Part shown: positions 29,643-34,936 of the stretch, in pieces
Layout of the letters: each line of letters begins with the position of its first letter
Numbering within the stretch: position 1 is the stretch's first letter
DNA from: Trueperaceae bacterium
GTDB lineage: Bacteria; Deinococcota; Deinococci; Deinococcales; Trueperaceae
Length of the DNA: 44,084 bases
Direction of reading: 5' to 3'
NCBI GenBank assembly: GCA_019454765.1
Contig: JACFNR010000019.1
Span: 1 to 44,084 of the forward strand
The notes under the pieces: model-generated
The model's database searches: none
What the model saw: the letters and a program-made list of their open reading frames with translations, nothing else
What the model was told of the DNA's origin: nothing
Translations under genes and position numbers: made by a program

Positions 29643-29661
29643 ACGCAAGCTCTCATTGCGT
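29643..29661. repeat. inverted repeat over the exbB -35 region
   Basis: ACGCAA (29643-29648) and TTGCGT (29656-29661) are perfect 6-bp arms separated by 7 nt. The right arm is the candidate -35 box of the exbB promoter, an expected operator position. No regulator is known. Confidence 0.4.
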
Positions 29662-29683
29662 TCATGAGGGCCGCACGTAGCAT
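29656..29683 (+). promoter_or_regulatory. candidate promoter of the exbB-exbD-DUF3048 operon
   Basis: TTGCGT (29656-29661), 16-nt spacer, TAGCAT (29678-29683). Expected start near 29690, about 28 nt before the exbB ATG, which has an AAGGAG ribosome binding site. Confidence 0.5.
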
Positions 29684-29717
29684 GGCGACCGATGCTTGAC
29701 CGCGCAAGGAGCGTGGA

Positions 29718-30440
29718 ATGACTGTCACTGAACTACTCTTGAGCGGCGGCCCCATCCTGGTCGTCATCATCCTGGTCTCCCTGTACGCGGTCTACCTGTT
29801 CGTGGAACGTTTCCTGAAGCTGCGCCGCGAGCGCTCCGACACGTCGAGCCTCATGGCGCGCGTGAACGCCGCGGTGCGCGAGCGCGACCTCGAGGCCGCC
29901 CTGCACGCCTGCGAGCAGCACGGCGGGCCCGTGGCGCGCGTGCTGCACAGCGCCCTGGAGCGGCTGCCCTACGGCCGACCGGCCGTGGAGGCCGCGTTCG
30001 AGGAGGCGTCGCTGCGCGAGGAGCAGGCGCTGACACGCGGCCTCACGCCGCTGTCGATCATCGCCAAGATCGCCCCCATGCTCGGCCTGCTCGGCACCGT
30101 CACGGGCATGATCATCACGTTCTCGCAGATCTCGCTGCGCGGTTCCGGCGACGCCTCGGAGCTGGCGTACGGCATCGGCCAGGCGCTCGTGACCACGGCC
30201 GCCGGTCTGATCGTGGCCATCCCCGTCCTCGTCGGGCACGGCTACCTGTTCAGCCTCGTCGAGAAGCAGCTCGGCGACATCGACCGCCGCCGCGAGGAGC
30301 TGATGGGCAACGTGGTGCAGGCCGTTGCCAACCGGCGCGACGAACCCGCCGGCGCCCCCCGCAGAGCCGAACAGGCGGAGGCGGCGCGCGAGGGGCGCGT
30401 CGACGCGCGCCCAGACACGCGGCCGGCCACCCAGGCCTGA
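29718..30440 (+). CDS. ExbB/TolQ/MotA family proton channel protein
   Basis: 240 aa inner-membrane protein. TM1 is about 8-28 (GGPILVVIILVSLYAVYLFVE), followed by a cytoplasmic helical loop. Two further helices are at about 113-135 (ISIIAKIAPMLGLLGTVTGMII) and 150-175 (YGIGQALVTTAAGLIVAIPVLVGHGYL). GLLGTVTGM and AL-x-TTAAGL are the family hallmarks. With ExbD it should convert proton flow into mechanical work on a third, periplasm-spanning protein. A strong AAGGAG precedes the ATG. The C-terminal tail (205-240) is charged and low-complexity. Confidence 0.93.
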   Translation: MTVTELLLSGGPILVVIILVSLYAVYLFVERFLKLRRERSDTSSLMARVNAAVRERDLEAALHACEQHGGPVARVLHSALERLPYGRPAVEAAFEEASLREEQALTRGLTPLSIIAKIAPMLGLLGTVTGMIITFSQISLRGSGDASELAYGIGQALVTTAAGLIVAIPVLVGHGYLFSLVEKQLGDIDRRREELMGNVVQAVANRRDEPAGAPRRAEQAEAAREGRVDARPDTRPATQA

Positions 30441-30443
30441 CCC

Positions 30444-30851
30444 GTGGCGCGGACCCGCAGGCACCGCCGCTCCGGGCTCGTCCCGGAACTCGACCTCACC
30501 CCCATGGTCGACGTGGTCTTCCTGTTGATCATCTTCTTCATGGTGTCGACCACCTTCATCACCGTCGAGTCGGGGCTGCCCGTCGACCTCCCCGACGCGC
30601 AGATGTCGGTGGCCGAGCCGTCCAACCTGCCGACCGTGACGGTGACCAAGGACGGCAGCGTCTACTTCAGCGGCGCGCAGGTGCAGGAGGCGCGGCTGGC
30701 GGTGCTGGTGCGCGAGGAGATCGACCGCAGCGGCATGACCACCGTTGTGCTCCGCGCCGACCGCGACGTCCCCCACGGCACCGCGGTGCGCATCATGGAC
30801 CTCATCAAGCAGGGTGGGGCCCAGCGCATCGCCATCTCCACGGGCGGGTGA
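30444..30851 (+). CDS. ExbD/TolR family protein
   Basis: 135 aa with a basic N-terminus, one TM helix (about 23-43) and a periplasmic domain. PELDLTPMVDVVFLLIIFFMV carries the conserved Asp of the proton path (in MVDVVF). RAD-RDVPHGTAVRIMDLIKQGGAQRIAI matches the C-terminal fold. The GTG begins 3 nt after the exbB stop. It forms the stator complex with the preceding ExbB. Confidence 0.93.
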   Translation: MARTRRHRRSGLVPELDLTPMVDVVFLLIIFFMVSTTFITVESGLPVDLPDAQMSVAEPSNLPTVTVTKDGSVYFSGAQVQEARLAVLVREEIDRSGMTTVVLRADRDVPHGTAVRIMDLIKQGGAQRIAISTGG

Positions 30852-30864
30852 GGGCGAGGTCGGC

Positions 30865-32922
30865 TTGAGCGTCACCTCCACCACTCCCCGCGGCGAGGCG
30901 GAGGCCCCGTTGTGGCGCGACCCCGACAAGCGCCGCGCCCTCGCCGTGTCGGTGACGCTGCACATGCTCGTGCTGCTGCTCGCCCTGCTGGCCGGCCTCC
31001 GGCCGCGGGCCGAGGAGAAGCCCACCTACATCGTCATCGACGTCGGCACGCCCGCGCACGCGGAGGAGACGACGCTGGCGGCCACCGCCGAGAACCCGGC
31101 GCCGCCCACGCCGTCGCCGCAGGTGGCGTCCGAGACGATCGGCGCGCCGCGCGACCTGGCCGCCCCGCAGACCGAGTCGACCGCGCCTGAGGAGCGCGAG
31201 GTGACGGTGCAACCGCCGGCCCCCGCCGCCCCGCCAGCGCAGGCGGCCGCGGCGACGCCCGAAGCGACGGCGGCAGACGTGCCCGTGCCGCCCCTCGCGG
31301 TGCCGCAGGTGACGGAGGCGAGCCCTCCCAGCGAGGCGCTGCCGCTGGCCGAGGCGCCAGCCACGCCCCTGCCGGAGATCGACCCCGTGGTCATGACGCC
31401 GCGGCCCCTCGCCGACCCGGTCGTCCTCGCCGTTCCGCCCGTCAGCGCCACCGTGGTGGAGGCGCGCGCCATCGCGGCGCGACCCACCGCCACGATCAGC
31501 CAGGCGCGCGACCTGGCTCCGCCCAGACCGGAGGCGAACGTCGCGGCGCCCCGCGAGGTCACCGCGCCCGCCGTGAACGCAACGGTGGCGCAGGCCGTGG
31601 GCCTCGCCTCGCCGAACGTGCAGGCGTCCGTGACGGCCGCCCGGCCCCTCGACTCGCCCGCCCCGACCGCCCAGGTGGCGGCGGGCACCGCGCTCAGCAC
31701 CGATGGCGTGAGCGCCAGCGTGGCCGGCACGCGGCCCCTCGCCGCACCCAGCGTGACGGCGCAGGTGGGCGCGACCCGCGACGTGCAGGTCGTCCCGCAA
31801 GCGGTGGTGGCGCAGGTGCGCGACGTGCCCGTGCCGGCGCTGCGCGCCGACGTGCTGGCCCCGACCACCGCAGCGGGGGCGCCACGCGGGGACGGCACGC
31901 GTCAGGGCGACACCGACGTGCAGGCCACCGCCGTGAGCCCGCTGACGCCGGGCGGCAACGCGGCCACGGCCGGCCAGACGGGGCCCCTCGACCCGAACGC
32001 GACCGCCGACGGTCGCGGCCGGGCGGCCGGGCCTGACGGGGTGGGGGAGGGCACGGGCGCGCCGCTGCAGCAGGCGCGACTGCCTTACAGCTTCCAGCGG
32101 CAACAGCCCCTCGCCGTGCTCGTCGACAACGTGGGTGGCTACCCGCAGACGGGCCTGCGCGAGGCGAGCATGATCGTGGAGATGCCGGTGGAGGGTGGCC
32201 TCACGCGGCTGATGGCCATCTTCGACGACGACTTCCCCAGGCGGGTCGGGCCCGTGCGGAGCGCGCGCGACTACTTCGTCGAGCTGGCGCAGGCGAGTCA
32301 CGCCGTGCTGGTGCACGACGGCGGTTCTCCGGGCGCGCTCATCGCCATAGCCAACTCGGTGCTGCCCACGCTCAACGCCTACAACAACGGTGCGCTGTTC
32401 GCGCGCGACGACGGCCGCAAGGCGCCTTACAACCTCTACGGCAGCGGTGGCGACCTCCGAACGGCCATGTTGCGACTGGTGCCGGAACGGTCGAGGCTGG
32501 TGTCGGGCAGCGTGTTCGGGCCCACCGCCGCGGCCGACGAGGTGACGGAGGTGAGCGTCAAGTATAGCGGCGCCTACACGTCGGGCTTCAGGTACGACGC
32601 GGTCCTGGGCAACTACCGCTGGGTGCGCGACGGCACGCCCGCCAACCACCCCGACGGTCAGCTGATGCTCTACGACGCGGTCCTGGTGGGGAGCATCACG
32701 GCCCGCCAGCTGCCGGGCGACACCGAGGGGCGCCTCTACATCCCGCTGCAGGCGGGTGACGCCACGCTCTACCTGAAGGGGCGGGCGCAGCGCGGCACCT
32801 GGTTCGTGAGCCAGGGAGTGGGCGTGAGCTTCAGGACCTCGGAGGGTGAGGTGGTCGACCTGGCGCCCTTCAGGACGTGGGTGATGCTCACCCCCACGTA
32901 CGACTCGCGCGTGGAGGAGTGA
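30865..32922 (+). CDS. TonB-like N-terminus, 15-residue repeats and C-terminal DUF3048 domain
   Basis: 685 aa, third gene after exbB-exbD. A short cytoplasmic end leads into one TM helix (about 25-45: ALAVSVTLHMLVLLLALLAGL). The helix carries Ser-x3-His as in the TonB and TolA helices that contact ExbB/ExbD or TolQ/TolR. Then come a Pro/Ala-rich periplasmic stretch (60-190), a degenerate 15-residue repeat (193-327) and a Gly/Thr linker. The DUF3048 (YerB-like) domain spans about 405-685 (PLAVLVDNVGGYPQTGLREASMIVE, VEGGLTRLMAIF, VGPVRSARDYF). No TonB_C or TolA_C domain exists. The TTG at 30865 is chosen 13 nt after exbD because upstream starts lie inside exbD; that choice is moderately sure. 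Confidence 0.82.
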   Translation: MSVTSTTPRGEAEAPLWRDPDKRRALAVSVTLHMLVLLLALLAGLRPRAEEKPTYIVIDVGTPAHAEETTLAATAENPAPPTPSPQVASETIGAPRDLAAPQTESTAPEEREVTVQPPAPAAPPAQAAAATPEATAADVPVPPLAVPQVTEASPPSEALPLAEAPATPLPEIDPVVMTPRPLADPVVLAVPPVSATVVEARAIAARPTATISQARDLAPPRPEANVAAPREVTAPAVNATVAQAVGLASPNVQASVTAARPLDSPAPTAQVAAGTALSTDGVSASVAGTRPLAAPSVTAQVGATRDVQVVPQAVVAQVRDVPVPALRADVLAPTTAAGAPRGDGTRQGDTDVQATAVSPLTPGGNAATAGQTGPLDPNATADGRGRAAGPDGVGEGTGAPLQQARLPYSFQRQQPLAVLVDNVGGYPQTGLREASMIVEMPVEGGLTRLMAIFDDDFPRRVGPVRSARDYFVELAQASHAVLVHDGGSPGALIAIANSVLPTLNAYNNGALFARDDGRKAPYNLYGSGGDLRTAMLRLVPERSRLVSGSVFGPTAAADEVTEVSVKYSGAYTSGFRYDAVLGNYRWVRDGTPANHPDGQLMLYDAVLVGSITARQLPGDTEGRLYIPLQAGDATLYLKGRAQRGTWFVSQGVGVSFRTSEGEVVDLAPFRTWVMLTPTYDSRVEE
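31441..31845 (+). repeat. degenerate 45-bp (15-aa) tandem repeats
   Basis: Nine consecutive units with pattern [VP]-x-A-x-V-x-x-A-R-x-L-A-x-P-x, for example PTATISQARDLAPPR, VNATVAQAVGLASPN, VQASVTAARPLDSPA and VSASVAGTRPLAAPS. Six units are exactly 15 aa and the outer ones differ by one. The DNA has diverged much more than the protein pattern, implying selection on the protein. Confidence 0.7.
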
Positions 32923-32940: not shown

Positions 32941-33729
32941 TCACTCGGCGCTGAGGCGCGGCACCAACTCGTCGAAGTAGAGGCCGTGCAGCCGCAGGCG
33001 GTAGTCGGCGTTGCGCACGTCGACCTCCAGCCAGGCGTACTCGTCCCTGTGCCCGTTCGTGTCGAGCAGCAGCGCGCGACCCTGCGACGCCACGTTCACG
33101 CCGGCCCGCACGGGCGTGTGGCCGTACACCCCGAGGCGGTAAGGGGTGCCCTCCAGGAAGTCCCGGTCCTCCTGCAACCAGCGGCGGCGGTTCTCGAGGT
33201 AGAACGCCTGGTCGTACGTGTTGTGTTCGGGAAGCGGACCAACGTGCGCGAAGTGCAGGCCCTCGATGGCGATGTCGTGCGGCCAGGAGAGGATCCACGC
33301 CTGCAACTCAGGGTCGAGGTCGGAACCGTGCCCCGGCTTCCACTCGAGGTGCGACACGTCGTCGGTGCGCAGCGGGCCCTGCCCCGGGGTGGCCGCGTTG
33401 AAGTCGTGGTTGCCGAGGAGGATGGTCATGTTCCCGGCAGGCACGCGCTCCTGGAACCCCTTAACCTCGCGCAGGAAACGCACCTGCAACGCCTCCGCGC
33501 GCTCGAGATGGCGGGGGTTGTACTCGTCGTAGCGCCGCACGTTGATCATGTCGGCGTAGCGTTGGCGGCTCTTGGCGTGGACGAGGTCGCCGAGGAGCAC
33601 CAGCTTGGTGGCGTCGCCGCGAAGCTCGTCGGTTGGACGGTTGTGCTCGTCGGCCAGGCCGGCCTCGCGCAGCATGCGCCACAGCTTCTCGGCCTGCACG
33701 TGGATGTCGCCGATGACGACGATGCGCAC
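32941..33729 (-). CDS. calcineurin-like metallophosphoesterase
   Basis: 262 aa, cytoplasmic. The metal ligand motifs are complete: VIGDIHVQ, LLGDLVHAKS, LLGNHDFNA, LHFAHVGPLP and YGHTPVR. This is the Ser/Thr-phosphatase/ApaH-type fold; the substrate is unknown. The GTG at 33729 lies 23 nt after the stop of the LysM/M23 peptidase gene and both are on the minus strand, so they are probably co-transcribed. Its 3' end faces the DUF3048 gene with 18 bp between stops. Confidence 0.9.
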   Translation of the reverse strand: MRIVVIGDIHVQAEKLWRMLREAGLADEHNRPTDELRGDATKLVLLGDLVHAKSRQRYADMINVRRYDEYNPRHLERAEALQVRFLREVKGFQERVPAGNMTILLGNHDFNAATPGQGPLRTDDVSHLEWKPGHGSDLDPELQAWILSWPHDIAIEGLHFAHVGPLPEHNTYDQAFYLENRRRWLQEDRDFLEGTPYRLGVYGHTPVRAGVNVASQGRALLLDTNGHRDEYAWLEVDVRNADYRLRLHGLYFDELVPRLSAE

Positions 33730-33752
33730 TCGGTCAGCTCACTTCGCGGGCG

Positions 33753-34922
33753 TCAACGGGAGGCGTGCGCCTCGAGGTAGGGCAGCGGATCGACCATCTC
33801 GCCGTCGACCCTCATCTCGAAGTGGAGGTGCGAGCCGGTGGAGTTGCCGGTGCTCCCCACCAGCGCGATGACGTCTCCCGCCGCCACCGCGGTGCCCTCG
33901 GCCACCTCGATCTTGGAGGCGTGCCCGTAGTAGTACTCGGTGTTGCCGTTCGTGACGATGACCAGGTTGCCGTAGCCGCCATGCCAACCGGCGAACGTGA
34001 CCGTGCCGGGAACGGCCGCCCTGATGGGGTCGCCCGTGTCGCCGTCGATGTCGAGGCCGGTGTGGAAGTTGCTGCCGTTGACCCGCAACTGGCGGTAGCC
34101 GAAGCGCGAGGTGATGGTCCCGACGATGGGCCAAAGCATGGCGCCCTCGGCCACGAGGGGCCTGACGGCGGGCGCCTCGACCTTGGCGACCGTGGCCGCG
34201 ATGTCCGCTCCAGGGAGGATGCGCAGTTCCTGACCCACCACGAGCGCGTCGCCCCTGAGGGAGTTGGCGCTCTTGAGGGCGGCGACCGAGCTGTTGTAGC
34301 GGCGCGCCAGCGACCACAGGGTGTCGCCCTTGCCGACCACGACGGTCATGGGGAGGGGGCCACCAACGTCAGTGTCGAGGCCGGCGTACTGGCCGGGTAT
34401 GGTCAGCTGGTCGCCCACGCGCAGGATGGCGCTCTCGGTGATGCCGTTGGCCGCCGCGATGGCCGCGACCGTGCTGTCGTAACGCCTGGCCAGGACCCAG
34501 AGCGAGTCGCCCACGTTCACCTTGACCACCAGCGGTCCGGGCACGGAGTCGCCGGCCAGGAGCTTGAGCTCTTGGCCGGGGTGGATGAGCGTGCCGTCGA
34601 GGTCGTTGAACGCGATGAGGTCGCTCACCGACACGCCGTTGGCGAGCGCGATGTCGTAGAGCGTGTCCCCCGCCCTGACGGTGACGGTGGTGGGGGCGGG
34701 GAGCGCCTCGTCCTCGCCGGGGACCGTCAGGACCTGCCCTGGCCTGATGGCGTCGGTGGCGAGGTCGTTCATGCTCCTGATGGTGGCAACGTCGGTGCCC
34801 TCGCGCTGCGCGATGGCCCAGAGGCTGTCGCCCGGCTGCACGGTGATCGTCTTGGCGGAGGCCGCTGCGGTCCCCAGGACGACCACTGCGAGAAGGGTAC
34901 GGGCGAGGCCATGTGATCGCAT
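33753..34922 (-). CDS. LysM-repeat M23 family metallopeptidase
   Basis: 389 aa secreted cell-wall hydrolase. A signal peptide (LARTLLAVVVLGTAAASA) is followed by four LysM domains (VQPGDSLWAIA, VRAGDTLYDIA, VNVGDSLWVLA, VGKGDTLWSLA) that bind glycan. The C-terminal M23/LytM domain has zinc ligands in HTGLDIDGD and SHLHFEMRV. It should be active on peptide cross-links or in cell separation. The ATG at 34922 is preferred over the TTG at 34931, which overlaps the -10 box. Confidence 0.93.
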   Translation of the reverse strand: MRSHGLARTLLAVVVLGTAAASAKTITVQPGDSLWAIAQREGTDVATIRSMNDLATDAIRPGQVLTVPGEDEALPAPTTVTVRAGDTLYDIALANGVSVSDLIAFNDLDGTLIHPGQELKLLAGDSVPGPLVVKVNVGDSLWVLARRYDSTVAAIAAANGITESAILRVGDQLTIPGQYAGLDTDVGGPLPMTVVVGKGDTLWSLARRYNSSVAALKSANSLRGDALVVGQELRILPGADIAATVAKVEAPAVRPLVAEGAMLWPIVGTITSRFGYRQLRVNGSNFHTGLDIDGDTGDPIRAAVPGTVTFAGWHGGYGNLVIVTNGNTEYYYGHASKIEVAEGTAVAAGDVIALVGSTGNSTGSHLHFEMRVDGEMVDPLPYLEAHASR

Positions 34923-34930
34923 CGTCGCCA

Positions 34931-34936
34931 AATCTA
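34931..34936 (-). promoter_or_regulatory. -10 box TAGATT of the LysM/M23 gene
   Basis: Minus-strand TAGATT is followed by 8 nt and the ATG at 34922. It overlaps the alternative TTG codon and therefore argues against it. Confidence 0.5.

Follow-up and report, generated by a model that had tools for sequence, protein, structure and literature searches.

The window analysed here, which is the whole stretch of 44,084 nucleotides, carries three consecutive genes on its plus strand. exbB (29718 to 30440) starts with ATG and encodes a 240-aa proton-channel subunit of the MotA/TolQ/ExbB type, and exbD (30444 to 30851) starts with GTG and encodes 135 aa. The third gene (30865 to 32922) starts with TTG and encodes a 685-aa protein consisting of a transmembrane (TM) helix, a long periplasmic linker and DUF3048. 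The coordinates agree at base resolution with the gaps of 3 nt (exbB-exbD) and 13 nt (exbD-third gene) that had been reported for these genes, within an interval (29656 to 32922) that starts 62 nt 5' of exbB. The purine-rich GAGGGCGAGG (30850 to 30859, plus strand) is likely the ribosome-binding site of the third gene, as inferred from its sequence. Scans of the locus for promoters and terminators were uninformative. On the minus strand 3' of the operon (32941 to 34931), convergent phosphoesterase-like and LysM-containing, M23-peptidase-like genes were recognized by eye; genes related to these neighbours are found again at some 15 of 26 Deinococcota loci.

The motor and its third protein

Both motor subunits match their Pfam families above the curated cut-offs (MotA_ExbB, PF01618, 2.3e-28, 98.9 bits; ExbD, PF02472, 6.4e-31, 107.5 bits), and the pair accounts for the sole ExbD and sole MotA_ExbB match of the 2.9-Mb genome, which is 97% complete. 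Residues of the proton path are kept, namely the proton-binding TM aspartate of ExbD (LDLTPMVDVVF), which aligns with D25 of E. coli ExbD, and the Thr of the LGTV and TTA motifs of ExbB. In the displayed Trueperaceae ExbB sequences, Gln replaces the Glu of the E. coli motif GIAEAL, and family f3 has Glu. Because the best scores against the NCBIfam equivalog models for TolQ, ExbB, TolR and ExbD are all under the cut-off, the motor is assigned to neither Ton nor Tol in the narrow sense. No TonB-dependent receptor (PF00593), TonB_C or OmpA/Pal domain (PF00691) was matched in the genome, the last of these being scattered across the genomes searched (8 of 61). We found no other partner in the genome for its only ExbBD.

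The AlphaFold2 model of the third protein has a helix at residues 20-44, disorder over residues ~45-405 and a DUF3048 part mostly at pLDDT ~90. The original prediction described a TonB/TolA-like TM helix with Ser-x3-His, and both model and alignment bear this out: the helix (30922 to 30996, plus strand) follows the start and contains Ser29 and His33, which are conserved in 27/29 and 26/29 aligned third proteins. The pair is not universal, as the His33 position is Thr or Ser in three f3 rows and the Atribacterota proteins have Ser-x3-Asn. Conservation of the pre-helix RRA and of the Ser/His pair across the family places the true start upstream of the TM helix; loss of the helix at the true start, which would have refuted the original prediction, is thus not borne out. 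An annotation artefact or wrong start is ruled out by the RRA, the pair and the D-box-like strand described below, which are kept in 26-29 of the 29 proteins. The window and the Trueperaceae thus satisfy the wide-sense criterion for a TonB/TolA transducer, that is, a motor-linked gene with a single N-terminal TM helix bearing Ser-x3-His.

All aligned Deinococcota proteins carry a short hydrophobic strand immediately after the helix; its usual form is [YF][IL]V[IL][DE]xG, and in Trueperaceae it mostly stands between prolines. Its counterpart in the window, P-TYIVIDVGT-P (residues 53-63; 31021 to 31053, plus strand), was recognized by its pattern and by the position of the TonB D-box. The latter, QP-ISVTMVT-P, is gripped by two periplasmic domains of ExbD (PMC10907165). 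Several Atribacterota strands read (I/L)MVT(M/L)VELP, for example IMVTMVELP against ISVTMVTPA in E. coli. On a 7-point score for a hydrophobic, proline-free strand, the post-helix segment reaches 5-6, and other parts of the linker average ~2; in seven Atribacterota proteins the scorer missed the strand and took the last part of the TM helix. The D-box match consists of a pattern on a hydrophobic strand, its position and its flanks, and binding to ExbD is an inference.

The long Pro/Ala and repeat-rich periplasmic span that had been predicted was also recovered, as a disordered linker of ~360 aa in the model and sequence (30997 to 32079, plus strand). Within it lie roughly nine or ten degenerate repeats, each of 15 residues (31420 to 31899, plus strand), detected by autocorrelation at lags 15, 30 and 45. 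At lags 15 and 30 the identity is 0.23 and 0.25, respectively, compared with 0.13 in shuffled sequences, and none of 2000 shuffles was as high.

The C-terminus matches DUF3048 (PF11258, 1.8e-35, residues 411-535) and DUF3048_C (PF17479, 1e-8, residues 563-673), both above cut-off. The first domain (32095 to 32469, plus strand) is supported by Pfam, PDB and alignment and includes E439, E443, R448 and GPVRSARDY; the second (32551 to 32883, plus strand) is supported by Pfam. The claim that DUF3048 stands in place of TonB_C or TolA_C would have been refuted by the lack of a domain match, which did not occur. A hidden TonB_C in the third protein is ruled out, as neither Pfam nor NCBIfam gave such a match and Pfam shows DUF3048 domains only. 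The sole match in a sequence search of the PDB was B. subtilis YerB (2psb, 9.4e-26), to which the AlphaFold2 model aligns with a TM-score of 0.83. Foldseek likewise returned YerB alone, with no other fold at E <= 0.001 and none to any enzyme. The DUF3048/YerB literature that we found describes only a lipoprotein of unknown function or a sporulation-associated gene, with no assigned function. The window genome has one DUF3048 match. A Trueperaceae paralogue in genome G015 (L053, minus strand, 650-aa ORF) is a secreted trypsin-like protease fused to DUF3048, in which the conserved S466 and N523 are lost.

Distribution of the gene order and an alternative end domain

The order exbB-exbD-DUF3048 was observed at 28 Deinococcota loci where exbB and exbD are both visible, and at one more with exbD at a contig edge. 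Every operon seen whole in Trueperaceae (f1) and f3 keeps this order, which argues that the arrangement is not due to chance. Deinococcota loci without the linkage are interrupted by contig ends, save the second copy L053. The scan covered one genome per species (84,980 species) and considered the best 80 loci, so other phyla could be missed. Among these best 80 loci, the linkage occurs only in Deinococcota and at six of six Candidatus Atribacteria loci, and the DUF3048 proteins of Bacillota, Patescibacteria and Chloroflexota are mostly lipoproteins or TM-anchored, without ExbBD. A search of the phylum Atribacterota detected DUF3048 in 46/50 genomes, and of the loci that have the long form and sufficient sequence upstream, all 20 show exbB-exbD-TM-DUF3048. 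The linkage of third-gene homologues to exbBD in relatives, whose absence would have spoken against the original prediction, was therefore found throughout two phyla. In contrast, Halanaerobiales have ExbBD followed by a TonB-like protein on one contig (TonB_C by Pfam in L182) and DUF3048 on another contig, without ExbBD.

Some Atribacterota (L202-L205) encode an additional, apparently secreted DUF3048 protein of ~315 aa, which lacks ExbBD and falls in a clade separate from the motor-linked forms. At two other loci of this phylum (L194 and L199), a second, near-identical exbB-exbD pair lies ~4.7 kb upstream, with a TPR-type protein of ~1230 aa encoded between the pairs, and a prolipoprotein diacylglyceryl transferase-like gene lies 3' of the DUF3048 gene. 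The DUF3048 tree places Deinococcota and Atribacterota in separate clades, but their union is not rejected in an AU test (p 0.24). A single origin of the fusions in the two phyla is neither shown nor excluded.

In the Deinococcota families f2, f4 and f5 (L065-L070, L206-L219), ExbBD is followed by a protein with the same helix-linker layout and a different C-terminus. The helices inspected contain the histidine, most with a serine four residues earlier. The C-terminal domain, ~115 aa where readable, has the motif VDxRGLxPxxxPxIxDxxGxxVWP and no Pfam or NCBIfam match. In a weak match, its model is similar to a portion, not assigned to any one of the three domains, of Treponema pallidum Tp0624 (5jir, E 6e-4), a proposed peptidoglycan-acting protein. 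Several of these loci share a conserved secreted fourth gene. Across 111 Deinococcota genomes, DUF3048 was found in 43, the alternative domain in 13 and both in none. Given that ExbB and ExbD of both output types fall within one Deinococcota clade (98/98 in the ExbB+ExbD tree), one inherited motor appears, from these sequences, to bear different and exchangeable end domains.

Proposed function and alternative explanations

On comparative grounds and without experiment, we consider it fairly probable that the third protein is a force transducer of the TonB/TolA type with DUF3048 as its output, probably acting on the wall in diderms without Tol-Pal. We are confident of the architecture and of its coupling to the motor, although physical coupling and force transmission are inferred. 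The cell wall as the target of DUF3048 is likewise inferred and remains a tentative assignment that could readily prove wrong.

The three genes would encode an ExbB5-ExbD2-type, proton-driven envelope motor together with a dedicated force transducer. The Ser-x3-His helix of the third protein would dock on ExbB, and the periplasmic ExbD dimer is inferred to grip the D-box-like strand just outside the membrane. Motor strokes may then travel via the disordered, repeat-rich linker to DUF3048, which stands where TonB and TolA have their C-terminal domain and would probably bind or act on a cell-wall component. The likely purpose would be active wall remodelling or coupling in diderms without Tol-Pal. 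The earlier inference that proton-motive force is delivered to DUF3048 is supported, by comparison only, by the D-box-like strand, the sole ExbBD and the lack of TonB_C, receptor and OmpA-Pal matches. We infer a wall target because monoderms, which have a wall and no outer membrane, use DUF3048 in surface proteins anchored to the membrane, because N422, E439, E443, R448 and W646 are retained in both motor and non-motor forms, and because Tol-Pal is missing. We know of no wall-binding activity for DUF3048. Also counting against this explanation are the changes of the helix histidine (to Thr or Ser in f3 and to Asn in Atribacterota) and of the GIAEAL Glu to Gln in the displayed Trueperaceae, the restriction of the fold matches to YerB, and the fact that the D-box-like strand rests on a pattern.

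Alternatively, DUF3048 may be an enzyme on a cell-envelope polymer that is moved or gated by the motor, as a near-invariant polar set (E439, E443, R448, R465, S466, R468, Y470, N523 and R623) in motor and non-motor forms might suggest. However, our search patterns bias the conservation of 461-470, and residues of GPxRSARxY and HDGGSP, which belonged to those patterns, cannot be counted; Foldseek gives no match to an enzyme fold, and the loss of S466 and N523 from the Trueperaceae protease-DUF3048 paralogue is more like a targeting module. We regard an enzyme as unlikely. It is also doubtful that the system is a TonB-like importer, in which DUF3048 would touch a protein of the outer membrane that has gone unrecognized (a porin or SlpA/OmpM-type barrel) and power uptake or gating and not wall work. 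The logic of motor and tether is that of TonB and the linker is long enough to span the periplasm, but the genome is without a PF00593 receptor or TonB_C, and DUF3048 is common in Bacillota, Patescibacteria and Chloroflexota, which mostly have no outer membrane. Finally, the TM helix is very improbable as a mere anchor that replaces the YerB lipid anchor, with exbBD adjacent by operon history and driving nothing through the third protein: f3 and Atribacterota do lack the His and many monoderm DUF3048 forms have plain TM anchors, but exbBD linkage is strict in two phyla, the genome's sole ExbBD has no other partner found, and proteins without the His still have the D-box-like strand.

Relation to known systems

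The proposed motor-driven transducer ending in DUF3048 resembles TonB in its ExbBD-type motor, N-terminal Ser-x3-His TM helix, D-box-like strand and proline-rich periplasmic linker, and differs in that the third protein does not end in TonB_C and the genome has no TonB-dependent receptors. With TolA of Tol-Pal it shares the motor-linked gene, the three-part layout and independence of such receptors, whereas the third protein lacks a TolA/TonB C-terminal domain and the genome lacks an OmpA/Pal match. YerB/DUF3048 lipoproteins (B. subtilis, 2psb) have the same domain and conserved residues; unlike the third protein, they are lipid- or TM-anchored, with no motor or force linker. A similar layout is that of the vWA-domain force transducers, whose C-terminal domain is unrelated to TonB/TolA (Williams-Jones et al. 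2025; PMC12204202): these also combine a motor-linked SHLS helix, a disordered linker and a non-TonB/TolA end domain, the output being vWA. The text of that paper mentions neither DUF3048, YerB nor Deinococcota. Transducers with non-TonB end domains are thus already known, and DUF3048 would be a new output among them. Since the arrangement is found again all through a second, distant phylum, ExbBD-DUF3048 looks like a further output of this motor family.

We speculate, as a possibility that we hold only loosely, that ExbBD-DUF3048 plays the part of Tol-Pal in Terrabacteria, providing energized wall/outer-membrane coupling or remodelling in diderm phyla without Tol-Pal. It would have arisen when a wall protein of the monoderm type was joined to a tether like that of TonB, an event that may have happened on more than one occasion, and within Deinococcota the end domain would have been exchanged for others. 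The widespread and uncharacterized DUF3048, with one solved structure, gains a mechanistic setting, and a function established for B. subtilis YerB would offer a lead for the motor systems. The findings suggest that ExbBD serves as a general-purpose pulling motor whose outputs can be exchanged, and make the energizing of the envelope in diderms without Tol-Pal testable.
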